Assembly: GCA_023423855.1 (NCBI GenBank)
Contig: JAFAEU010000190.1
Location: 1 to 10,984 of the forward strand
Reading direction: 5' to 3'
DNA: 10,984 nt
DNA from: Pseudomonadota bacterium
GTDB lineage: Bacteria; Pseudomonadota; Gammaproteobacteria; Xanthomonadales; Xanthomonadaceae
Made by a program: the position numbers and the translations under genes. Below, piece by piece: positions 1-9,628 of this stretch (position 1 is its first letter; every line of letters begins with the position of its first letter). The notes under the pieces are model-generated. The model saw only the letters and a list, made by a program, of their open reading frames with translations, had not been told where the DNA came from and did no database searches.

Positions 1-2341
1 TGATCGACTGGTCGACGTGGCGCTGGCGGCGCGCGTTCTGGCGCACGCTGGCGAACTGGTCGACCTTGTACGCGCCCTTCTCGTAGTAGGGCCAGGTCTC
101 CAGCGACAGCCCCGGCGCGGCCACCGGCCGGCGGTAGTCCTTCTTCTCCTCGTAGTAGAACGCGGAGTAGATCGGGTCGATCGAGGCGGTACTGCCTGCG
201 ATCTGCGCGGTCGACATGTTCGGCGCCACCGCCAGCAGCCAGCCGTTGCGCACGCCGTTGACCGCCACCTGCGCCGACAGCTCCAGCCATGGCGGACTGT
301 TGTAGTCGCGCGCGCGGAAGTACTCGCCGTTGTGCCAGTCGCTGCCGAGGAAGGCGCTGTAGGTGCCCTTCTCCCTGGCCAGTTCCATGCTCGCCTGCAC
401 GGTGAGGAAGTTGATCCGTTCGTACAGTTCGTCGCTGAAATCCTCCGCTTCGGGCGAATTCCAGTGGATGCCCTTCTGCGCCAGCAGGTGGTGCCAGCCG
501 AACGTGCCCAGGCCGATCGCGCGGTACTTGCGGTTGGTGATCGTGGCCTGCGGCACCGGCAGGTCGTTGAGGTCGATCACGTTGTCGAGCATGCGCACCT
601 GGATCGGGATCAGGCGCTCGAGCACGTCGGTGATCAGGTCGCCCTGGTCCTCCTGCGGCAGCACGGCGCGGCCGAGGTTGACCGAGGACAGGTTGCAGAC
701 CACGAAGTCGCCGGCCTGCCGGGTGGTGACGATCTGGTTGCCCGAGATGATCTCCTGCATCATCCGCGTCGGGCTCATGTTCTGCAGGATCTCGGTGCAC
801 AGGTTGGACGAATACACCATGCCGGCGTGCTTGTTCGGGTTCTTCCGGTTGACCTCGTCGCGGTAGAACATGAACGGGTTGCCGGTCTCGAGCTGGCTGA
901 CCATGATCCGCTTGAAGATGTCGATGGCCTTGACGGTCTTGCGCGCGATGCGCTCGTCGGCCACGACCTCCTCGTACTTCTTGCGGAACGTGCCCTCGCC
1001 CCTCGACTCGTCGAAGAAGTCCTGCAGGTACCAGCCCTTGACCCGCTTCACCTCGTGCGGGTCGAACAGGTACCAGTCGCCGCGGCGCTCGACGGCCTCC
1101 ATGAACAGGTCGGGGATGCAGACCGAGGTGAACACGTCGTGCGCGCGCAGGCGCTGGTCGCCGTTGTTCAGGCGCAGGTCGAGGAAGGCCTCGATGTCGC
1201 GGTGCCAGATGTCGAGGTAGACCGCGACCGCGCCCTTGCGCTGGCCGAGCTGGTCCACCGACACCGCGGTGTTGTTGAGCTGCTTGATCCACGGCACCAC
1301 GCCGCCCGACGAATTGGGCACGCCGCGGATCGCCGAACCCGACGAGCGCACGTAGCCCAGGTAGGCGCCCACGCCGCCGCCACCCTTGGACACGCGCGCG
1401 ATGTCGGTGTTGGAGTCGTAGATGCCCTGCAGCGAATCATCGACGGTGTCGATGAAGCACGAGGACAGCTGGCCGCCGATCTTGCCGGCGTTCTGCAGCG
1501 TCGGCGTCGCGACGGTCATGTACAGGTTCGACAGCGCCCAGTAGGCCTCGCCGACCAGCTGCATGCGGCGCTCGCGCGGCTTTTCGTCCTGCATGAGATA
1601 GAGCGCGATCGTCAGCCAGCGCTCCTGCGGCAGTTCGTACACCGCGCGCGAGGTGTCGGTGGCGAGGTAGCGCGTGGCCAGCAGGTACAGGCCGTTGTAG
1701 GCGAACAGCTTGTCGCGCTCCGGGTCGATCATCTTCCCGGCCTCGACCAGCTCCTCCTTCGAGTACGCGCGCAGGATGTCGTTGGAATAGACGTTGCGGT
1801 CGGCCAGGCTCTCCTGCAGGCCGACGTAGGAGCCGTATTTCTGCTCGGTGTCGTAGAAGCGGTTGCGGCTGGCGCGCTTGTACAGGCGGTGCAGGTACAG
1901 GCGCGCGGCGAAAACCTCCCACTCCGGCGCGGCGACGTCGACGCGCGCCTCGGCTTCGCGGATCAGGTGGTCGACGAGGTCGTCGGCGTTGACCGCGTCC
2001 TTGCGCTCGACGAAGCCGAACACGCTGCGCTTGTAGTCGGCGATCTCGAGCTGCGGGAATTCGGCGTGGACGCGGTCGATGGCGCGCTCCAGGCGCGCGC
2101 GGTCGTAGGGGATCCGGCGGTTGCCGGCTTCCTTGGTGATCCAGGTGGCCACGTCCTGGTCGGCGGTGGCGGTGTCGGGCATGTCGGTGGTTCTCGGCGC
2201 CGGGATGGCGTCGTCGCTGTCGACGGGCTCCGGGGCGATGGCGGCCGCGGGCTTCGCGGCCGGAGTTGCTGCGGTGGCGGCGGCGTCTGCCGCCGTCGGT
2301 TCGATGGCCGGTTCTGCGGCCGGGGTGTTGTTGTTGCTCAT
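1..2341 (-). CDS. nrdA: Class Ia ribonucleoside-diphosphate reductase, alpha (catalytic) subunit, 3' end outside window
   Basis: This gene encodes the large subunit of the oxygen-dependent ribonucleotide reductase. The enzyme reduces ribonucleoside diphosphates to deoxyribonucleotides in the cytoplasm, using a radical generated by the NrdB subunit. About 780 codons are visible and the frame runs open off the left edge. The reading begins MSNNNTPAAE and has an Ala/Pro-rich stretch of about 60 residues. An ATP-cone follows (about residues 65-155), then the ten-stranded barrel. Catalytic landmarks are present: Cys295 in GGQLSSCFIDT (like E. coli Cys225), the Asn-Leu-Cys-Thr-Glu motif with Asn513, Cys515 and Glu517 (like Asn437/Cys439/Glu441), and Cys549 in FVVCNLSS (like Cys462). 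The two C-terminal thioredoxin-interacting cysteines should lie beyond position 1, as should nrdB if the usual order holds. The start is set by GGAGGA at 2350-2345, three bases before ATG. An internal Met at codon 54 has no comparable site. Upstream are a promoter, NrdR boxes and a cobalamin riboswitch. Confidence 0.96.
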   Translation of the reverse strand, partial: MSNNNTPAAEPAIEPTAADAAATAATPAAKPAAAIAPEPVDSDDAIPAPRTTDMPDTATADQDVATWITKEAGNRRIPYDRARLERAIDRVHAEFPQLEIADYKRSVFGFVERKDAVNADDLVDHLIREAEARVDVAAPEWEVFAARLYLHRLYKRASRNRFYDTEQKYGSYVGLQESLADRNVYSNDILRAYSKEELVEAGKMIDPERDKLFAYNGLYLLATRYLATDTSRAVYELPQERWLTIALYLMQDEKPRERRMQLVGEAYWALSNLYMTVATPTLQNAGKIGGQLSSCFIDTVDDSLQGIYDSNTDIARVSKGGGGVGAYLGYVRSSGSAIRGVPNSSGGVVPWIKQLNNTAVSVDQLGQRKGAVAVYLDIWHRDIEAFLDLRLNNGDQRLRAHDVFTSVCIPDLFMEAVERRGDWYLFDPHEVKRVKGWYLQDFFDESRGEGTFRKKYEEVVADERIARKTVKAIDIFKRIMVSQLETGNPFMFYRDEVNRKNPNKHAGMVYSSNLCTEILQNMSPTRMMQEIISGNQIVTTRQAGDFVVCNLSSVNLGRAVLPQEDQGDLITDVLERLIPIQVRMLDNVIDLNDLPVPQATITNRKYRAIGLGTFGWHHLLAQKGIHWNSPEAEDFSDELYERINFLTVQASMELAREKGTYSAFLGSDWHNGEYFRARDYNSPPWLELSAQVAVNGVRNGWLLAVAPNMSTAQIAGSTASIDPIYSAFYYEEKKDYRRPVAAPGLSLETWPYYEKGAYKVDQFASVRQNARRQRHVDQSI

Positions 2342-2344
2342 GCG

Positions 2345-2392
2345 TCCTCCACGCGTCGCGCACACGTCCGGCCTGTCCCCCGCAGGCGGAGG
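2345..2392 (-). promoter_or_regulatory. Possible Shine-Dalgarno sequestering element in the nrdA leader
   Basis: The nrdA ribosome binding site lies within GTGGAGG (2352-2346). The leader segment CCTCCGC (2392-2386) can pair with all seven of these bases, one pair being G-U, across a loop of about 33 nt. The same segment can instead fold onto the adjacent GCGGGGG (2383-2377) as a tight hairpin that would leave the ribosome site free. The two folds exclude each other, which is the layout expected of a riboswitch expression platform acting on translation. This rests only on visible complementarity. GC-rich leaders form such pairings by chance, so the call is tentative. Confidence 0.3.
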
Positions 2393-2424
2393 CCCGGATC
2401 GTCAGGTTGAAAAAGCGGCGTCGC

Positions 2425-2454
2425 AAAAGCGGGGACTGCGCGAACGGCGCCCCG
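2425..2454 (-). terminator. Weak candidate intrinsic terminator/attenuator between riboswitch and nrdA
   Basis: On the minus strand CGGGG (2454-2450) can pair with CCCCG (2434-2430). A smaller GCG/CGC hairpin may form inside the loop. A C and then four T residues (2428-2425) follow, and a second short run of five T residues lies about a dozen bases further on. The position, about 70-100 nt after the riboswitch core and about 85 nt before the nrdA start, suits an attenuator. The stem is short and the T tract poor, so it is only a candidate alternative to the ribosome-site sequestering fold. Confidence 0.25.
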
Positions 2455-2525
2455 GTCCTGCGTCGCCAGCCCTCTCCCCCCGGAGATCCCGCGGCCGGCA
2501 CCGCGCGGCGTGCAGGCGCGCGGCT

Positions 2526-2729
2526 GTCGGCAGGTCTTCGGACTCACGGGCACGGAAGGCTGGCCTTCCACCTTGTCCGCCGCTTCCCGGAAGCCTTGGC
2601 TCCAGTGCTGATGGCGGGTTCGTTCCCGTTTACCGCTGCGGGGCAGTGCCGGAATGGCCGCGGACCCTTGCGGGCGCGGCGTCACCGGCTTCCCTTTTCA
2701 TCCTCCGGCGTGGGGCTGGAGGAACCGAC
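2526..2729 (-). promoter_or_regulatory. Cobalamin (B12) riboswitch in the nrdA leader
   Basis: The minus-strand leader carries the conserved parts of the adenosylcobalamin riboswitch in order. A closing P1 helix pairs GTCGG (2729-2725) with CCGAC (2530-2526). A TCCTCC/GGAGGA helix leads into GATGAAAAGGGAAGCCGGTG (2702-2683). CTGCCCCGCAGCGGTAA lies near 2646-2630, and AGCACTGGAGCC and the GGGAAGC region follow at about 2610-2580. The 3' B12 box GAGTCCGAAGACCTGCCG (2545-2528) fits the family consensus rAGYCMGgAgaCCkGCC with one soft mismatch. The element starts at about the predicted transcript start and is followed by about 180 nt of leader before nrdA. Riboswitches of this family bind cobalamin and usually reduce expression of the downstream gene. 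Here that would silence the B12-independent reductase when B12 is plentiful. The orientation fits nrdA and not the divergent receptor gene. Confidence 0.93.
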
Positions 2730-2731
2730 GG

Positions 2732-2747
2732 GCACAACATAGTGGGG
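2732..2747 (-). promoter_or_regulatory. NrdR box, proximal (overlaps -10)
   Basis: The plus-strand reading is GCACAACATAGTGGGG. It matches about 11 of 16 positions of the palindromic NrdR consensus acaCwAtATaTwGtgt. It covers the -10 element of the nrdA promoter. Its centre is 32 bp from that of the distal box, with a 16-bp gap, which is the spacing known for paired NrdR boxes. Alone it would be a moderate match; the pairing makes it convincing. NrdR is an ATP-cone/zinc-finger repressor of reductase genes that responds to adenine nucleotide status. Confidence 0.75.
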
Positions 2748-2764
2748 TGTAATCGAACCGTCAA
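2736..2764 (-). promoter_or_regulatory. Sigma70-type promoter for nrdA
   Basis: The -35 element is TTGACG (2764-2759, five of six consensus bases). A 17-bp spacer separates it from the -10 element TATGTT (2741-2736, four of six). The predicted start is about 2729-2730, at the first base of the riboswitch P1 helix, giving a leader of about 388 nt. Both hexamers are touched by the two NrdR boxes, so bound NrdR would block polymerase. It is among the few AT-rich patches in this intergenic region. Confidence 0.75.
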
Positions 2765-2779
2765 CACCAAATATTGTGT
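2764..2779 (-). promoter_or_regulatory. NrdR box, distal (upstream of -35)
   Basis: The minus-strand reading is ACACAATATTTGGTGT. It agrees with the NrdR consensus acaCwAtATaTwGtgt at 14 of 16 positions and is one of the clearest regulatory sites in the window. It abuts the -35 hexamer by one shared base and pairs with the proximal box three helical turns away. NrdR boxes of this kind are standard upstream of class I, II and III reductase operons in proteobacteria. Confidence 0.87.
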
Positions 2780-2803
2780 GGAACAGCAAATCGGATGTTC
2801 CAC
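2778..2803. repeat. Inverted repeat upstream of the nrdA promoter
   Basis: GTGGAACA (2778-2785) and TGTTCCAC (2796-2803) are perfect 8-bp arms around a 10-bp spacer. The repeat overlaps the distal NrdR box by two bases. Each arm reads outward as a degenerate DnaA-box-like sequence: TGTTCCACA against TTATCCACA, 7 of 9, on the minus strand, and 6 of 9 on the plus strand. It may be an operator for a dimeric regulator or an activator site for nrdA. No regulator can be named with confidence. Confidence 0.5.
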
Positions 2804-3089
2804 GTCGCCCGCGGAGCGGCAGGCCTTCCGCCGCCGCCCTGGACCGGGCGATCCGCCCGGCTCCCGGCGCCGCCGCGGGGACGCCGGCCGTGGACTGAAT
2901 CCGCCGGCGCGGGGCGTGGACGCGTCGTCGCCGCCGCCGGACGGCGGGCCCGGAATGCATTGGCCTGATCGCGACGGCATGCGGCCCTCGTGATGCAACT
3001 GATTCGCGTTACCGGGCCCATATTCGAAACGTCAGGGTGGGAGGAACCCGACCACAATTCCGCTGTTCCAGACCGACTTGGGGAGACAG
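2804..3089. other. Intergenic region between the nrdA control region and the receptor gene
   Basis: This is GC-rich, non-coding sequence. I find no gene and no convincing promoter. CATATT near 3019-3024 is a possible -10 for the receptor gene but has no good -35. I looked for a Fur operator upstream of the receptor and saw no acceptable match. The best stretch, around 2991-3010, fits fewer than half of the consensus positions. The receptor's ribosome binding site is at 3080-3085. Confidence 0.5.
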
Positions 3090-5237
3090 ATGAACATCGT
3101 CAACGAATACACGAACAGCCTGCGCCGTCGCCGCATGCTGGCCACGTCGATCGCACTGGCGCTGCTGCCGGCGTTTGCCGCGCATGCGCAGGAACGCCCG
3201 TCCGATGCGGTCGAGCTCGACCGCATCGTCGTCTCGGCGCCGAACTACGTGCCGTCGGGCAGCATGACCGCGACCAAGTCGTCCGCTCCGCTGATCGAGA
3301 CCCCGCAGTCGATCTCGGTGGTCACCCGCGACCAGATCGACCTGCTCGGCTTCAACGACGTGCAGCAGGCCATCCGCTATACCGCCGGCATCGTCGGCGA
3401 GAATTACGGCCCCGACCTGCGCTACGACTTCCTCACCCTGCGCGGCTTCACCCCGAAGCAGTACATCGACGGCCTGCAGGCCCCGATCAGCACCACCATC
3501 TTCAACGTCGGCGCCGACCTGTACGGCTTCCAGGAAGTGGACGTGCTCAAGGGTCCGGCCGCGGTGCTGTACGGCAACTCGCCGCCGGGCGGCATCTACA
3601 ACCTCACCAGCCGCCGCGCCGAGGAGACGCTCGGCGGCGAGCTCGGCGTGCAGTTCGGCAGCGACGACTACAAGCAGGTGCAAGGCACGGTCACCGGTTC
3701 GCTGGCCGACGGCCTGAGCGCGCGCGCGACGCTGCTGTACCGCGACCGCGGTTCGCAGACCGAGCACGTGACCGGCGAGCGCACCTATTTCGCGCCGACC
3801 TTCACCTGGAAGATCGGCGAGAACACCAGCCTGACCGGCCTGGCCTACTACCAGAAGGACGCCAACACCGGCGACACCAACGGTTTCCTGCCGGCGCACG
3901 GCACGCGGCTGGGCAACCCCCACGGCGTGATCCCGCGCGGGCGCAACCTGGGCGAGCCCGACTACAACAGCTACGACCGCACCCAGACCGCGATCGGCTG
4001 GGACTTCAACCACGCCTTCAGCGATCGCGTCAGCTTCCAGCAGAACGCGAAGTGGTACGAGTACGAGGAGTTCCAGAAGGTCGTCTATTCCACCGGCCTG
4101 CAGGAGGACATGCGCACGGTCAACCGCGCCAGCTATCCGTACGCCGAGGACGTGGACGGCTTCGCGATCGACAGCCGGTTCACGCTGAAGCTCGGCGGCG
4201 ACGGCGTGCGGCACACGGTGCTGGCCGGCTACGACTACCGCGACCTGGAGAACTTCGCGCGGTTCGGCTTCGCCGGCGCGCCGTCGCTGGATGCCTTCGA
4301 TCCGGTCTACGGCGCGGCGCCGATCGTCACGCCGGAGCTGGCCTTCATCTTCAACGACCAGCGCGTGAAGCAGTCCGGGCTCTACGTGCAGGACCAGATC
4401 AAGGCCGGCAGGCTCGTCGTCACCCTCAGCGGGCGCTACGACGACGTCAAGCTGCACGACAACCAGGGTGGCGCCACCACCAAGCAGGACGAGTTCACCT
4501 ATCGCGCCGGCGTGAACTACGTGTTCGACGGCGGCTGGGCACCGTACGCGAGCTACGGCACCTCGTTCGAACCGGTCCTGGGCACGGATTCGGAAACCGG
4601 CGAGGGCTTCAAGCCCAGCACCAGCACGCAGGTCGAGGCCGGCGTGAAGTTCGACGCGCGCGGGCTGCCCAGCGGCGTGCGCCTGTTCGCGACCGCCGCG
4701 CTGTTCCGGATCGAACAGGACAACCTGGTCAGCGTGCAGTCCGGGCAAACGCCGATGTTCGGTCGCCAGCTCGGCGAGGTCGAGGCCAAGGGCGGCGAAC
4801 TGGAGGTCGTGGCGCGCATCCACGACCAGTGGAGCATCAACGCCTCCTACAGCTATACCAGCACCGAGGTCGTGCGCGACGCGGGCGGCTTCGCCACCGG
4901 CGATCCGCTGCCGACCACGCCCGAGCACAAGCTCACCGCGTTCGTCGACTACACCTTCCAGCAGGGCAGCCTGGCCGGACTGGGCTTCGGCCTCGGCGGA
5001 CGCTATCTCAGCGAATCCGCGGGCGGCCTGGTCGACCAGTGGAACCCGGAGGTGATCTACGCCAAGCCGACCACGATCTGGGACGCCATCGTGCACTACG
5101 ACCGCCACAACTGGCGCTTCGCGCTCAACGCGACCAACCTGTTCGACAAGGAATACGTGGGGCGCTGCGCCAGCGTGGCCAACTGCATCTACGGCCAGGG
5201 CCGGCAGCTCATCGCCACGATCAGCTGGAGGCTGTGA
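3090..5237 (+). CDS. TonB-dependent siderophore receptor
   Basis: This is a 715-residue outer-membrane receptor for energized uptake of a chelated metal, most likely a ferric siderophore. A signal peptide (arginine cluster 12-15, hydrophobic core, AHA|QE cleavage after about residue 33) precedes a TonB-box-like DRIVVSAP at 44-51. The plug domain (about 60-180) contains TPQSISVVTR, RYDFLTLRGF, YIDGLQ and LKGPAAVLYGNSPPGGIYN. These are the signatures of the ferrichrome/FhuA-FoxA-FpvA type rather than of BtuB. The rest is a beta barrel, with a two-cysteine segment GRCASVANCIYGQGR near the end, as in other siderophore receptors. The protein ends ISWRL rather than with an aromatic residue. ATG at 3090 is preferred over TTG at 3078 because GGGGAG (3080-3085) lies four bases before it. 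It is divergent from nrdA and upstream of a YncE-like gene. The ligand cannot be read from sequence. The B12 riboswitch points the other way and does not control it. Confidence 0.93.
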   Translation: MNIVNEYTNSLRRRRMLATSIALALLPAFAAHAQERPSDAVELDRIVVSAPNYVPSGSMTATKSSAPLIETPQSISVVTRDQIDLLGFNDVQQAIRYTAGIVGENYGPDLRYDFLTLRGFTPKQYIDGLQAPISTTIFNVGADLYGFQEVDVLKGPAAVLYGNSPPGGIYNLTSRRAEETLGGELGVQFGSDDYKQVQGTVTGSLADGLSARATLLYRDRGSQTEHVTGERTYFAPTFTWKIGENTSLTGLAYYQKDANTGDTNGFLPAHGTRLGNPHGVIPRGRNLGEPDYNSYDRTQTAIGWDFNHAFSDRVSFQQNAKWYEYEEFQKVVYSTGLQEDMRTVNRASYPYAEDVDGFAIDSRFTLKLGGDGVRHTVLAGYDYRDLENFARFGFAGAPSLDAFDPVYGAAPIVTPELAFIFNDQRVKQSGLYVQDQIKAGRLVVTLSGRYDDVKLHDNQGGATTKQDEFTYRAGVNYVFDGGWAPYASYGTSFEPVLGTDSETGEGFKPSTSTQVEAGVKFDARGLPSGVRLFATAALFRIEQDNLVSVQSGQTPMFGRQLGEVEAKGGELEVVARIHDQWSINASYSYTSTEVVRDAGGFATGDPLPTTPEHKLTAFVDYTFQQGSLAGLGFGLGGRYLSESAGGLVDQWNPEVIYAKPTTIWDAIVHYDRHNWRFALNATNLFDKEYVGRCASVANCIYGQGRQLIATISWRL

Positions 5238-5254
5238 CGCCGGCGGCGGCGGGC

Positions 5255-5280
5255 AGCCCGGCCGATGCAACGGCCGGGCT
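5255..5280 (+). terminator. Hairpin terminator after the receptor gene
   Basis: AGCCCGGCCG (5255-5264) and CGGCCGGGCT (5271-5280) form a perfect 10-bp stem around the 6-nt loop ATGCAA, starting 17 bp after the receptor stop codon. No T tract follows (TTGCCG), so it is either a weak or Rho-assisted terminator or a 3'-end stabilising hairpin. It suggests that the receptor message mostly ends here and that the next gene has its own or read-through expression. Confidence 0.65.
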
Positions 5281-5505
5281 TGCCGAAGCGCGATCGGTGC
5301 CCCGCCCGCAACGGACTGGCGCGCACTCGTCGCGTTCCGCCCGATCGTGACCCGGATCGCCGCAAGTCGGGCACCGAATGGATAAGCCGCCGCGCGCCGC
5401 AGGCGGCAAGCTGCCGCGACCGTCAGCTTCGCATCAGGCGCCTTCGGGCCCAATGGCGTCCTGCCGGGCCACTCCATGTCCTGCACACATCGAGGGAGTC
5501 AATCC
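5281..5505 (+). other. Intergenic region upstream of the YncE-like gene
   Basis: No gene is seen here. An imperfect hairpin (CAGGCGCC at 5435-5442 against GGCGTCCTG at 5455-5463, one bulged T) precedes the ribosome binding site GGGAG (5494-5498). No clear sigma70 promoter or Fur operator was found, so whether the downstream gene has a separate promoter is open. Confidence 0.4.
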
Positions 5506-6555
5506 ATGACGCTACGTTCCGGCCTGATCGCGGCCACCGCCGCGGCCTGCATGGCGGCGCTCGCGCCGGCGCATGCCGGCGACCTGCTCTATACGCTCAC
5601 CGACACGGTCACCCTGCCCAGCACCGATAGCGGCTGGGACTACATCAAGATGGAGCCGGGCAGCAATCGGCTGTTCATGGCGCGCGACAAGGACGGGCTG
5701 ACTGTGTTCGACGTCGACGCCAACAAGGCGATCGCCACCGTTGGCAATTCCGTCGGCGCCAACGGGCCGCTGCTGCTGCCGCAGTACAACCGCGGCTACG
5801 TGGCCATGACCGACGGTTCGTTCCTCAGTTTCGAGCTGGATTCGCTCAAGCCCATCGCGCGGCTGCAGCTGGACGGCAACGGCGGCATCAACAGCGCCAT
5901 CCATGATCCGCTCACGAGGCGCATCCACGCCATCGTCGGCACGCGGCCCAGCGAATCGACCTGGTACACGCTCGACGCGGCCAGCGGCAAGCTGCTCGGC
6001 AGCAGGACCTTTCCGTTCCGGAAGATGGACGACCCCGCGACCGACGGCAAGGGTCGCTTGTTCGCACCCGCGCGACGGGACAACCTGATCCTGGTGCTGG
6101 ATTCGGAGACGCTGGACGAGCAGGCCCGCTGGACGGTGCCGTGCAACGTCTCCAAGGTCCGCTACCAGGCGCACAGCCACCGGATCCTCGGCGCATGCGC
6201 GGGCGACAATCCGATGTTCTTCGCGCTGGACCCGGACAGCGGCCGGGTGGTGGCCAGCCTGCCCATCGGCGACGGCATCGACGGCTTCGCCATCGACGAA
6301 GGGCGCAAGCGCATCGTCACCTCGAACTACGAAGGCACGCTGACCGTGATCCGCCAGGACGGGCCGGACAGCTATTCGCTGGCCGGGACGGTGTCCACCC
6401 TGCCCCGGGCGCGCATGATGACGATGGACGAGCGTACCGGGAGGCTGTTCGTGGTCACCGCCCGCTTCACGCTGGGTCCGCCGGATGCCAGCGGCGCGAC
6501 AGCGGCCACATACCATCCCGACAGTTTTGTCGTCCTGACCTATGCGCCGCAGTGA
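5506..6555 (+). CDS. Secreted YncE-like beta-propeller protein
   Basis: This is a 349-residue exported protein. The signal peptide MTLRSGLIAATAAACMAALAPAHA is predicted to be cleaved before GDLLYTL (after residue 24). The mature part is built of repeated blades with motifs such as NRLFMARDKDGLTVFDV, RGYVAMTDGSFLSFEL, GRLFAPARRDNLILVLD, FFALDPDSGRVVASLPI and GTLTVIRQDG. These typify WD40/YVTN-type propellers of the YncE family. No catalytic residues are evident, and the role is probably binding or scaffolding in the periplasm. ATG at 5506 was chosen over ATG at 5476 because GAGGGAG lies seven bases before it and the signal peptide then sits at the N-terminus. It follows a TonB receptor gene, as yncE neighbours yncD in E. 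coli, where yncE is iron-repressed. A link to metal uptake here is inference. It is convergent with the porin gene, with 34 bp between stops. Confidence 0.85.
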   Translation: MTLRSGLIAATAAACMAALAPAHAGDLLYTLTDTVTLPSTDSGWDYIKMEPGSNRLFMARDKDGLTVFDVDANKAIATVGNSVGANGPLLLPQYNRGYVAMTDGSFLSFELDSLKPIARLQLDGNGGINSAIHDPLTRRIHAIVGTRPSESTWYTLDAASGKLLGSRTFPFRKMDDPATDGKGRLFAPARRDNLILVLDSETLDEQARWTVPCNVSKVRYQAHSHRILGACAGDNPMFFALDPDSGRVVASLPIGDGIDGFAIDEGRKRIVTSNYEGTLTVIRQDGPDSYSLAGTVSTLPRARMMTMDERTGRLFVVTARFTLGPPDASGATAATYHPDSFVVLTYAPQ

Positions 6556-6589
6556 CCAAGCTTGCCTGGGACGCCGGCGGCCGCGCGCG

Positions 6590-7786
6590 TCATCGGGCCA
6601 GGCTGGCGACCATGCGCAGGCCGATGGCCAGGGCATCGTCGCGGCTGCGGTCGAGCCCGGGGTCGATGATGTACTGCAGGTCGGGCTGGAGCGTGAGCCA
6701 ATCGTTGAGTGCGAAACGGTAGGTAAGCTCGAGTGCGGTTTCCGCACGGGCAGCGGCGATTCCCTCCCGCACCATGGCCCCGCGCCAGGAGCGGCTGGCG
6801 GACGCGCGGGCGATGGCGATGCCGGCCTCGTCGTCCGGCCGCGCCGCGAATGGCCCGAGCCAGCGCAGGCCGACGCTGTGGAAACGGTCGAAGGGATGGG
6901 TGCGCCCCGTGGCGGCGCCGATGCGGTAGAACCCGTGCAGGCCGCGCGCCCGGTTGCCGGAGAGCAGGGCCTCGCCGCGCAGGTAGGCGCCGGCGCTGGT
7001 GCTGCTTGCGCCGGTGTCGCCAGGTTCGTCGTGATCGCGGGAATAGCCCCATGCGCCCAACAGGATCCGCTGCCGGTCGAGCTGCAGGTCCATCTCGGCG
7101 ATGCCGAAGGCGCCCTCGTCGCGGCTGATGCGCAAGGTACTGTGGTCGGGGCGATCCGGGTCGTTCGGGACGCCATCGAGCACGGCCACGCGCAGGGTCG
7201 CGTGATCGCCGATGGCGAGGGACAGGCGCAGCCCCGCGGACGTGTGCGGGAAGATCGATGGTCCGTTGCGGCCGCTCTGCGCGATGTCGGTCCCGATGCC
7301 ATGGGCGCTGTGCAGGAACACGTCGGAACTCTCGAGCGCGTCGAACTCGGTGTTGATGTCGTACAGGCCCGCGCGCAGGGACCAGCGGCCGCCGTCGCCG
7401 GCGTATTCGATCCAGGCCTCCAGCGGCAGCAGCGCGCGCGTGCCGGTTTCGATGTTGGAGAGACCCTGGGCGTCTCCGGCCAGGTCGCTGACGCTGTTGG
7501 CGCCGTTGTTGATCAGGTGGATCCGCGCGCTTGTCCGCGGCAGGCCGAACAGCCGCTCCAGGTCGAACGCGGCGATCATGTCGACCTGGTTCAGGTACCG
7601 CATCCCCCGGTCGCCGCCGGCGGTGACCGACCACGCGTCGACGGTGTAGGCAAGTTCCATCGCCGGCGTGTGTCCTTCCGGGGAGACCATGGCGGCAGCC
7701 GGCAATGCCGGCGGGAGCAGGCCACCCAGCAGCAGGATGTATCCGTGGATGCGCGGTGCATGGCTGGAGGCGGTGGCTGGAGTCAT
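6590..7786 (-). CDS. Carbohydrate-selective porin, OprB family
   Basis: This is a 398-residue outer-membrane beta-barrel protein of the OprB type, which passes sugars or other small polar solutes. A signal peptide with hydrophobic core at about 15-32 ends LPAAA. Family-typical stretches follow: QVDMIAAFDLERLFGLP, RIHLINNGANSVSDLAGDAQ, WSLRAGLYDINTEFD, SGRNGPSIFP, RGLHGFYRIG, and the C-terminal segment ELTYRFALNDWLTLQPDLQY. ATG at 7786 is preferred because AGGAGA (7802-7797) lies ten bases before it and the signal peptide starts close by. Reading further upstream adds about 98 residues with no porin character. The chain ends MVASLAR, without the terminal Phe that usually serves as the barrel-assembly signal. 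It is divergent from cytochrome b561 and convergent with the YncE-like gene. The substrate is unknown. Confidence 0.85.
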   Translation of the reverse strand: MTPATASSHAPRIHGYILLLGGLLPPALPAAAMVSPEGHTPAMELAYTVDAWSVTAGGDRGMRYLNQVDMIAAFDLERLFGLPRTSARIHLINNGANSVSDLAGDAQGLSNIETGTRALLPLEAWIEYAGDGGRWSLRAGLYDINTEFDALESSDVFLHSAHGIGTDIAQSGRNGPSIFPHTSAGLRLSLAIGDHATLRVAVLDGVPNDPDRPDHSTLRISRDEGAFGIAEMDLQLDRQRILLGAWGYSRDHDEPGDTGASSTSAGAYLRGEALLSGNRARGLHGFYRIGAATGRTHPFDRFHSVGLRWLGPFAARPDDEAGIAIARASASRSWRGAMVREGIAAARAETALELTYRFALNDWLTLQPDLQYIIDPGLDRSRDDALAIGLRMVASLAR

Positions 7787-8069
7787 GGTCTGCGGATCTC
7801 CTGGCTGGGCTGGGCGCGTGGCGATGCGCGCGCGTGGCGGTGGGCCAGGCAACGATCCCAGCGTTTGCGCCCGCATGCTGTGCCTAAAAGGCCACAGGCT
7901 GCCGCCGAAGGGCCGCAATCTGGCACCCGGACGCGGTTTCGTGGCCGCTGCGCGACAGTCGGATGCGCGGCCGCTTGCTAGCGTGGGATGCGGAAAGACG
8001 GAAGGCCGGGCGATCGCGCGGCCCCCGGGAAGTGCCACTGGAACTTCATTCGACGGGAGGGTTGAAACA
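7787..8069. other. Divergent intergenic region between porin and cytochrome b561 genes
   Basis: No gene is seen here. An operator-like inverted repeat, CTGTGCCT (7878-7885) and AGGCCACAG (7889-7897), has one bulged C and a 3-nt AAA centre. It lies about 90 bp upstream of the porin start and 170 bp upstream of the cytochrome start. Other hairpins can be drawn in this GC-rich stretch but none stands out. No convincing -35/-10 pair was found on either strand. Confidence 0.4.
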
Positions 8070-8624
8070 ATGAAAAACACAGTTTCCTCAGGCGGCTATC
8101 ACCGCTGGTCGATCCTGCTGCACTGGGCGATGGTGGTGCTGTTCGTACTGGTGTATGCCTTCATCGAGCTGCGTGTCGTGTTCGAGAAGGGCACCGATGC
8201 GCGCGATGCGATGAAGGCCGCCCATTTCATGCTCGGCCTGCTCGTGCTGTTGCTGGTGTGGCTGCGGCTGGCGCTGCGGGTGGTCTATCGCGTGCAGCCG
8301 ATCGTGCCGCTGCCGCCGGCCTGGCAGCGGATGGCGGCGGCGGTGGTGCAGGGCGCCCTGTACCTGCTGATGATCGGCATGCCGCTGGCCGGATGGGCGA
8401 CCCTGAGCGCGTACGACCATCCCGTGCCGTTCTTCGGACTGGAACTGCCGGCGATCATCGCGCCCGACAGGGCGCTGGCCTCGCAGCTCCAGGACTGGCA
8501 CGTGCGCATCGGCGACCTCGGCTACTGGCTGATCGGCCTGCATGCCGTCGCCGGCCTGGGACACCACTACGTGCGCAAGGACAACGCATTGAAGCGGATG
8601 CTTCTCTCCAAGTCCGCGGGCTGA
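8070..8624 (+). CDS. Cytochrome b561, inner-membrane di-haem protein
   Basis: This 184-residue protein is of the bacterial cytochrome b561 (CybB/YodB-like) type. It carries electrons between the quinone pool and a partner in the cytoplasmic membrane. Four hydrophobic segments lie at about 15-33, 52-70, 90-110 and 148-167. The expected haem-ligand histidines are present: His18 (LLHWAM), His52 (KAAHFMLG), His144 (DWHVRIG) and His158 (IGLHAVAG). The length is normal for the family. The start at ATG 8070 follows GGGAGGG (8055-8061) with an 8-base spacing. The coding start is AT-rich (AAAAACACA), unlike the surrounding sequence. It is divergent from the OprB porin gene. No catalase or YceI-type partner gene is next to it, so its redox partner is unknown. 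Confidence 0.93.
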   Translation: MKNTVSSGGYHRWSILLHWAMVVLFVLVYAFIELRVVFEKGTDARDAMKAAHFMLGLLVLLLVWLRLALRVVYRVQPIVPLPPAWQRMAAAVVQGALYLLMIGMPLAGWATLSAYDHPVPFFGLELPAIIAPDRALASQLQDWHVRIGDLGYWLIGLHAVAGLGHHYVRKDNALKRMLLSKSAG

Positions 8625-8638
8625 TCGAGGGCGCTTGT

Positions 8639-8668
8639 GGCTGCGGCCCCGGCCCCGGGGCCGCAGCC
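8639..8668. terminator. Strong bidirectional hairpin between convergent genes
   Basis: GGCTGCGGCCCC (8639-8650) and GGGGCCGCAGCC (8657-8668) form a perfect 12-bp stem with a GGCCCC loop. The hairpin lies 14 bp after the cytochrome b561 stop and 45 bp beyond the stop of the opposing SUMF1-like gene. It has no T tract on the plus side (CCTTGCC). It fits a shared terminator for the two convergent transcripts. Confidence 0.75.
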
Positions 8669-8713
8669 CCTTGCCGGCCTGCAACGGGATCCGTCACCGA
8701 TCAGGCGGATCGA

Positions 8714-9628
8714 TCAAGGCAGCGAGCGAACCACCCGGAACCCGAGCGTATTGTTCTGCCGCGCCGGATCGTCGCCTGCGTAGCGCATCGCCGGACGCAC
8801 CGTCTCGGGCTTGTTGTACCAGCCGCCGCCGCGCACGACCCGGCGCACGCAGTCGCCGGTGAGCCATGCGCTGCCGTCGCCGGGCGCGCCCTCGTACGTG
8901 GGGTTGTAGCAGTCCTCCACCCACTCCCAGGCGTTGCCGGCCGTGTCGTACAGGCCGAAGCCGTTGGGCTGGAAGCTGCCCACGGCGGCGGTGGTCCTGG
9001 CGTAGCGGTCGCTGCAGTCGTGCAGCGGCCAGTCCGGACGCACTTCCCTCAGCGCGTCGTCGCCCACGTTGCCGAACTCGCAGGCGCGGGTGGGGTCCTC
9101 GCCCCAGAACCACGGCGTCGCGGTCCCGCCGCGGGCGGCGTATTCCCACTGCGCCTCGCTCGGCAGGCGGTAGGACTGCCCGGTCCTGTGCGAAAGCCAG
9201 CGGGTGTAGCCGACGGCCATCTCGAAGTTCACGTACAGGACCGGCCTGCGGCCGCGGCCCCAGTCCTCGTCGGGCACGGCCTCGCAGCCGCCGTCGGCCA
9301 CGCAGGCGTCCCATTCGTCGTACGTGACCTCGTACCTGCCGATGGCGAACGGCCTGGCGAAGACCACCTCGTGCTGCGGCGCCTCGTTGGCGTCGTGGCC
9401 CGGTTCGGCGTCGGCGGAGCCCATCATGAAGCGACCGGCGGGCAGCACGACCATCTCGGGGCATTCGGCGCAGTCCCGGTCACCCGGTCCCGCGAACGGT
9501 GACGCCGCCGCCGGGCCGAGGGTGCAGGCACCGATGGCCAGCAGCAGGCAGGCGAGCCGCGGGCGACCGTGCCGCGATGCCGCGGTCCGCGGCCATGCGT
9601 TTCCTGCGATCGATGCTGCTGCGCTCAT
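8714..9628 (-). CDS. Exported SUMF1/formylglycine-generating-enzyme-like protein lacking the catalytic cysteines
   Basis: This 304-residue protein has the fold of formylglycine-generating enzymes. Landmarks are ECPEMVVLPAGRFMMGS (55-71), PFAIGRYEVTYDEWDACV (93-110), YRLPSEAQWEYAARGG (153-168), NGFGLYDTAGNAWEWVEDC (222-240), RVVRGGGW (263-270) and LGFRVVRS (295-302). In true aerobic formylglycine-generating enzymes, two copper-binding cysteines follow the RGGS motif. Here the corresponding residues are about Asn272 and Val277, so sulfatase activation is unlikely. The N-terminus has a basic region and a hydrophobic stretch with IGAC at 32-35, a possible lipobox, so it may be a periplasmic lipoprotein. 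Cleavage near PAAA|SP is the alternative. Seven further cysteines downstream of the signal could form disulfides. ATG at 9628 follows AGAGG with a 6-base spacing. It lies 28 bp downstream of the amidohydrolase gene on the same strand and is probably cotranscribed. The function is unknown. Confidence 0.88.
   Translation of the reverse strand: MSAAASIAGNAWPRTAASRHGRPRLACLLLAIGACTLGPAAASPFAGPGDRDCAECPEMVVLPAGRFMMGSADAEPGHDANEAPQHEVVFARPFAIGRYEVTYDEWDACVADGGCEAVPDEDWGRGRRPVLYVNFEMAVGYTRWLSHRTGQSYRLPSEAQWEYAARGGTATPWFWGEDPTRACEFGNVGDDALREVRPDWPLHDCSDRYARTTAAVGSFQPNGFGLYDTAGNAWEWVEDCYNPTYEGAPGDGSAWLTGDCVRRVVRGGGWYNKPETVRPAMRYAGDDPARQNNTLGFRVVRSLP

Follow-up and report, generated by a model that had tools for sequence, protein, structure and literature searches.

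Probable two-input control of a class I ribonucleotide reductase gene by an NrdR-type promoter and a cobalamin riboswitch in the Luteimonas/Xanthomonas group

A nrdA gene that is preceded by a promoter with NrdR-box-like sites and by an RNA of the cobalamin riboswitch type raises the question of which signals set its expression, and of which enzyme it would give way to. The gene lies at one edge of the window, the whole stretch of 10,984 nucleotides analysed here, which comes from a Luteimonas-like bacterium, and it is very probably under a two-input control, in which an NrdR promoter is combined with a B12 riboswitch deferring to the class II enzyme NrdJ. The first-pass annotation had taken the controlled gene for a class I nrdA, in agreement with its matches to TIGR02506 (509.7 bits, cut-off 341.05) and NF006665 (1372.4 bits). 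Pfam detects no ATP-cone in the encoded NrdA (2-2341, minus strand), whose N-terminal 280 residues were scanned with E values of up to 10, and none in Luteimonas marina NrdB either; the dATP feedback on class I may hence depend on NrdR alone. On the side of the promoter away from nrdA, the window (3090-9628) encodes a TonB-dependent siderophore receptor, an OprB porin, a cytochrome b561, a PvdO-like FGE-sulfatase protein and an ORF weakly matching a PQQ-type beta-propeller.

Regarding the start of the transcript, TTGACG-17-TATGTT on the minus strand is the sole sigma-70-like promoter on both strands of 2300-3100 (mean of 0.0 in 50 shuffles), and counting seven bases from its -10 places the putative +1 at 2729. 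The one gathering-level Rfam match of the window is to RF00174 (Cobalamin), from 2744 to 2512 on the minus strand and in the sense of nrdA, with 103.7 bits (gathering 31.5) and spanning positions 1-189 of the 189 of the model, thus not truncated. As the outermost model positions (bases 2744-2730) fall within the promoter, the aptamer would start at the putative +1, its transcribed part being approximately 2729-2526; its closing helix, GUCGG/CCGAC, opens at that very base, which agrees with the earlier placing of a riboswitch at 2526-2729 minus that begins at about +1. The likeness to RF00174 lies in the core motifs, which were chosen with the help of the alignment, and in an L5 CCCC with a GGGG loop downstream; GCACTG, GGGAAGCG and the L5 hairpin are all three present in the window. 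Judging from the sequence, the L5 CCCC would meet the downstream GGGG (L13), and a B12-sensing role of the leader, with both its ligand response and the direction of that response, is presumed by analogy. The features of the region are collected in Table 1.

Table 1. Features of the nrdA control region, in window coordinates, ordered from the gene to the upstream NrdR box
Feature	Position	Strand	Basis or remark
nrdA, class I ribonucleotide reductase alpha subunit	2..2341	-	ATG at 2341; open at window edge
Shine-Dalgarno GGAGG	2346..2350	-	Read from sequence and leader alignment
GUGUGC upstream of Shine-Dalgarno, complementary to hairpin A loop	2360..2365	-	Leader comparison
Hairpin P14	2417..2467	-	5' strand overlaps P13 3' strand; partly mutually exclusive
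P13-like hairpin with GGGG in its tip loop, the complement of L5 CCCC	2465..2499	-	Alignment
Hairpin A (CCGCGCG/CGCGCGG), invariant GCAC in loop	2501..2523	-	27-leader alignment
Cobalamin riboswitch aptamer, transcribed part	2526..2729	-	RF00174
P5/L5 hairpin CUGCCCCGCAG	2636..2646	-	Its CCCC loop would form one side of the L5-L13 contact
NrdR box 2 CCCCACTATGTTGTGC	2732..2747	-	Score 16/22; covers -10
-10 hexamer TATGTT	2736..2741	-	Promoter scan
-35 hexamer TTGACG	2759..2764	-	Promoter scan
NrdR box 1 ACACAATATTTGGTGT	2764..2779	-	NrdR-box-like, score 20/22

Between the aptamer and nrdA, an alignment of 27 leaders (the window and 26 nrdJ-bearing relatives, the short leaders L028, L039 and L046 being left out) shows three conserved elements: hairpin A, a P13-like hairpin and hairpin P14. 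In hairpin A, 98.4% of the cells are paired and the pairs are mostly invariant, and the P13-like hairpin has both-sided changes in 5 of its 12 pairs; taken together, 97.7% of their cells pair, with a covariation of 0.217 vs 0.148 (0/500 shuffles, kinship kept in). The P13 loop reads GUGG or GAGG in one Luteimonas subgroup, a poorer fit to CCCC. P14 is weaker than P13, with 94.2% of cells paired and a covariation of 0.235 vs 0.196 (9/500 shuffles), and since both hairpins overlap they may be alternative folds. Folding of the leader alone was no better than shuffles (z -0.91 and -1.11). Intrinsic termination was considered as the conserved output and rejected, as the minus strand of 2300-3100 yielded no intrinsic terminator and the 27 leaders have no conserved U-tract after P14, with few U-tracts seen by eye. 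Consequently, the way in which the ligand would lower expression is drawn from the riboswitch family.

In a variant of this mechanism the output is translational: the GCAC in the hairpin A loop would pair with a GUGC beside the Shine-Dalgarno. This variant may apply, though we lean slightly against it. The missing terminator and the scarcity of U-tracts after P14 would suit it, as would the presence of GUGC near that place in 44 of the 45 related leaders compared (0.37 expected per leader; 45 of 46 leaders, L045 having been dropped where the script found no loop). Nevertheless, taken leader by leader, the longest complementarity between the hairpin A loop and the ribosome-binding region never exceeds shuffles (p 0.09-0.91), it lies elsewhere in L047 and L048, and the GUGC may be part of a local hairpin. 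The same element can be followed in 15 Xanthomonas leaders (L012-L018, L021, L022, L025-L027, L029, L032 and L079) that are nrdJ-less and have no detected aptamer but keep hairpin A: its 16-nt block, GCGACAGCACACCGCG, is identical in 15/15, as is the presence near the Shine-Dalgarno of GTGTGC, the exact complement of the hairpin A loop. Their mean majority identity is 0.85 in hairpin A/P13, 0.65 in the former aptamer stretch, 0.79 in the remaining leader sequence and 1.00 in the last 20 bases. That a second leader RNA element works without the aptamer, the B12 sensor being a removable input on a platform that outlives it, is a tentative reading and a rather doubtful one.

The proposal that class I is turned off when class II can work makes predictions on genome content, which were examined in relatives of the window. 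These are the best 80 of 111 nrdA loci, mostly from Luteimonas, Pseudoxanthomonas, Xanthomonas and Stenotrophomonas, also including Halotalea, Carnimonas and Kushneria, which we take to be Halomonadaceae; their readable leaders number 79, that of L023 being cut by the contig end. A class II nrdJ (TIGR02504 over cut-off) is present in 31 of the 80 (30/50 in one set and 1/30 in the other), gene absence being judged on public assemblies of which some are drafts or MAGs (e.g., G010), and weaker matches below the cut-off (e.g., G044, 163.8 bits) being scored as no nrdJ. All 80 relatives have at least one cobalamin riboswitch, and 35 have a match at nrdA, 34 among the 50 by script mapping and one, L045, among the 30 with coordinates taken by eye. 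The whole-genome Rfam searches scored 40 or 59 of approximately 150-360 candidates per genome, one of them with stricter filters, so that weak matches can be missed; the matchless leaders of L013 and L050, scanned directly with Rfam at E up to 5, likewise showed no cobalamin riboswitch.

As predicted, the nrdA riboswitch tracks nrdJ across the 79 relatives with a readable leader. It is found in 29 of the 30 nrdJ genomes with such a leader, with 77.4-112.3 bits, the sole exception being Halotalea, where nrdJ is present and the nrdA riboswitch absent. Among the nrdJ-less genomes, 43/49 have no match at nrdA and 6/49 have one of 33.6-72.7 bits; accordingly, nrdJ is present in 29 of the 35 relatives with a match, the other six having degenerate aptamers. 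An intact nrdA aptamer is thus seen only alongside nrdJ among the relatives examined (79 leaders).

Some assignments of class deserve a comment. Matches of 360-373 bits to TIGR02504 in 22 Stenotrophomonas-group genomes were first taken for a divergent class II enzyme, a reading that was rejected because the protein of S. maltophilia D457 has 742 bits to class I NrdE_NrdA vs 366.5 to NrdJ, and an ATP-cone. As the D457 protein is class I, all 22 genomes were placed in the nrdJ-less group, the other 21 on similarity of score alone. This second class I nrdA of D457 (L093, 2893-6501) lies beside a 365-aa ORF, with a cobalamin riboswitch some 8 kb away. Two-piece nrdJ matches in single frames of 1307 and 1112 aa, intein-like in appearance, were observed in G022 (C14:5129-8515) and G035 (C2:100493-103522), respectively.

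It could be argued that the riboswitch senses B12 without being a selector between class I and class II, and that its association with nrdJ is due to shared ancestry. A rank test of the nrdA riboswitch score against nrdJ gives 4e-15 with kinship ignored, the taxa are nested, and the independent pairs on well-supported branches are only four, of which three agree, none opposes and one is without difference, a result that is not significant and that uses a 75-bit cut picked after the scores were seen. When any gathering-level match is counted as present, 1.4 pairs agree on average and none opposes, again not significantly, the genomes being related and the independent pairs too few. However, in the best tree, a quick NrdA tree with 29 of its 78 inner branches open, nrdJ changes at least eight times and the riboswitch at least seven times, and the nrdJ-less genomes retain other cobalamin riboswitches while none is intact at nrdA. 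Shared ancestry as the whole explanation is therefore improbable, and the selector role remains the preferred reading.

The decay itself can be seen in the six weak leaders, which have GCACTG in 0/6 and GGGAAGCG in 0/6, vs 27/29 and 29/29 of the nrdJ leaders, and the L5 hairpin CTGCCCCGCAG in 1/6 vs 29/29 (Halotalea set apart in each case). Meanwhile, metH and a PduO-type adenosyltransferase are each over cut-off in 17/17 genomes sampled, 13 of them nrdJ-less, and another cobalamin riboswitch is present in 49/49 nrdJ-less genomes; the single cobalamin riboswitch detected in X. euvesicatoria sits before a 938-bit btuB. As B12 use is kept in nrdJ-less genomes, the loss of the aptamer tracks nrdJ and not B12 use. 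From these sequences, the nrdA aptamer appears to have been lost together with NrdJ, the enzyme to which class I would defer.

The nearest among the best 80 of 111 relatives is Luteimonas marina, whose NrdA is 99% identical over 728 columns. The genome had been predicted to hold nrdJ, NrdR and a means of B12 acquisition, and in L. marina all were found: an nrdJ of 584.8 bits, nrdR, an adenosyltransferase, and a btuB-like TonB receptor whose match to the B12-receptor family (585.4 bits) falls slightly short of the cut-off of 599.7. Three cobalamin riboswitches were detected in this genome, at nrdA, at metE and at the TonB receptor gene, with no such match at nrdJ; these are the genes one would expect if B12 lowered the expression of both B12-independent isozymes and of its own uptake. 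The metE of L. marina lies near nrdAB with its own riboswitch (L089, 8412-11171). In another locus (L074, 11726-14226), nrdAB is followed downstream by a riboswitch and by an ORF that was taken for metE-like on its appearance alone. In Luteimonas sp. Y-2-2-4F (L095, 1083-2974), a methylmalonate-semialdehyde dehydrogenase gene has a cobalamin riboswitch of 98.5 bits in front of it.

With respect to the promoter, the first-pass annotation had described two NrdR boxes, 32 bp apart, that cover both hexamers. The spacing and the position of box 2 over the -10 were upheld, but box 1 abuts the -35 rather than covering it, the overlap being its first base only. A scan with an NrdR-box matrix, which had been suggested at the same time, bore out the pair, which lies 32 bp start to start and scores 36/44, the best of 60 Markov shuffles being 26; the scoring used an NrdR-box consensus and the spacings tried were 30-32 only. 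Both boxes have C at position 4 and G at position 13. PMC9110341 describes the geometry seen in the window, a pair of NrdR boxes separated by about three helical turns and having conserved G-C pairs, and a 32 bp spacing also appears in PMC4428469. Among the relatives with a leader (79 of the best 80 of 111 nrdA loci), the best box pair scores above every one of its 60 shuffles in 78 cases, L072 being the exception; in L019 and L035 it is placed on a different promoter layout, and L068, L071 and L075 are loci with unrelated surroundings. The nrdR gene is present in 50/50 relatives searched for it (50 of the 80 genomes). That the boxes are not bound by NrdR and are conserved as -35/-10 promoter alone is very improbable: box 2 does overlap the -10 with a modest 16/22 and only spacings of 30-32 were searched, yet box 1, at 20/22, lies upstream of the -35, the pair beats shuffles in nearly all relatives, nrdR accompanies it wherever searched, and the geometry is that of the pair in PMC9110341.

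NrdR pairs upstream of nrdJ were also considered and rejected, with no consistent pair in 8 loci. Single NrdR-box-like sites (17-18/22) were observed in L081, L083 and L091 (3/8 loci), 327-345 bases ahead of the nrdJ match; random 500-bp slices score 17-19 for an NrdR box in 8/400, some of them overlapping nrdA promoters.

In the two-input control favoured here, a high dATP level would lead an NrdR tetramer to occupy both boxes, three helical turns apart, and to block RNA polymerase, as suggested by the behaviour of the family. When transcription proceeds, the transcript would begin at the aptamer, and plentiful adenosylcobalamin would bind it, closing the L5-L13 contact and refolding the leader. 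Thus, nrdA would be turned down and the B12-dependent class II NrdJ would take over, and when B12 is absent nrdA would be expressed.

Borovok et al. (cited in PMC5962746) are said to have described, in 2006, a B12 riboswitch on the nrdABS of Streptomyces. The locus studied here resembles that system in that a class Ia nrd operon with a class II alternative carries both NrdR control and a B12 riboswitch, here as read from sequence; unlike it, the relatives are gammaproteobacterial and the leader is different. NrdR binds the nrdAB promoter of S. coelicolor, according to PMC9110341. In Propionibacterium acnes, PMC3848588 reports an nrd box on the nrdAB promoter, an annotated cobalamin riboswitch in the leader and nrdJ in the genome, and the authors likewise infer that class I and class II divide the work in this way. 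Differences are that nrdAB of this actinobacterium has a single nrd box, while the window has a pair, and that nrdR is co-transcribed with nrdJ in P. acnes (PMC3848588). Dual control of a class I ribonucleotide reductase by NrdR and a B12 riboswitch is, then, already described in actinobacteria, and the P. acnes report makes the combination less novel. Isozymes of B12-dependent enzymes are one class of cobalamin-regulated genes in a survey (PMC3766115). Nothing bearing directly on the subject was found in PMC4465626, PMC2864759, PMC2667541 or PMC8123684. No title or abstract on such control in Luteimonas/Xanthomonas, or on an nrdJ-linked decay, was found among the open-licence papers listed, which is weak evidence.

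Dual control of class I ribonucleotide reductase by nucleotide pool and B12, described in actinobacteria, is extended here to the Luteimonas/Xanthomonas group, with repressor sites, promoter and aptamer packed in one 250-bp block. Moreover, the relatives offer a natural experiment: in the 79 leaders compared, nrdJ-less genomes showed no intact aptamer and one nrdJ genome, Halotalea, is without it, with the NrdR-type promoter and the use of B12 being retained. This nrdJ-linked pattern speaks for the function of the switch, and it points to genomes in which to study riboswitches in decay and a possible leftover leader element.
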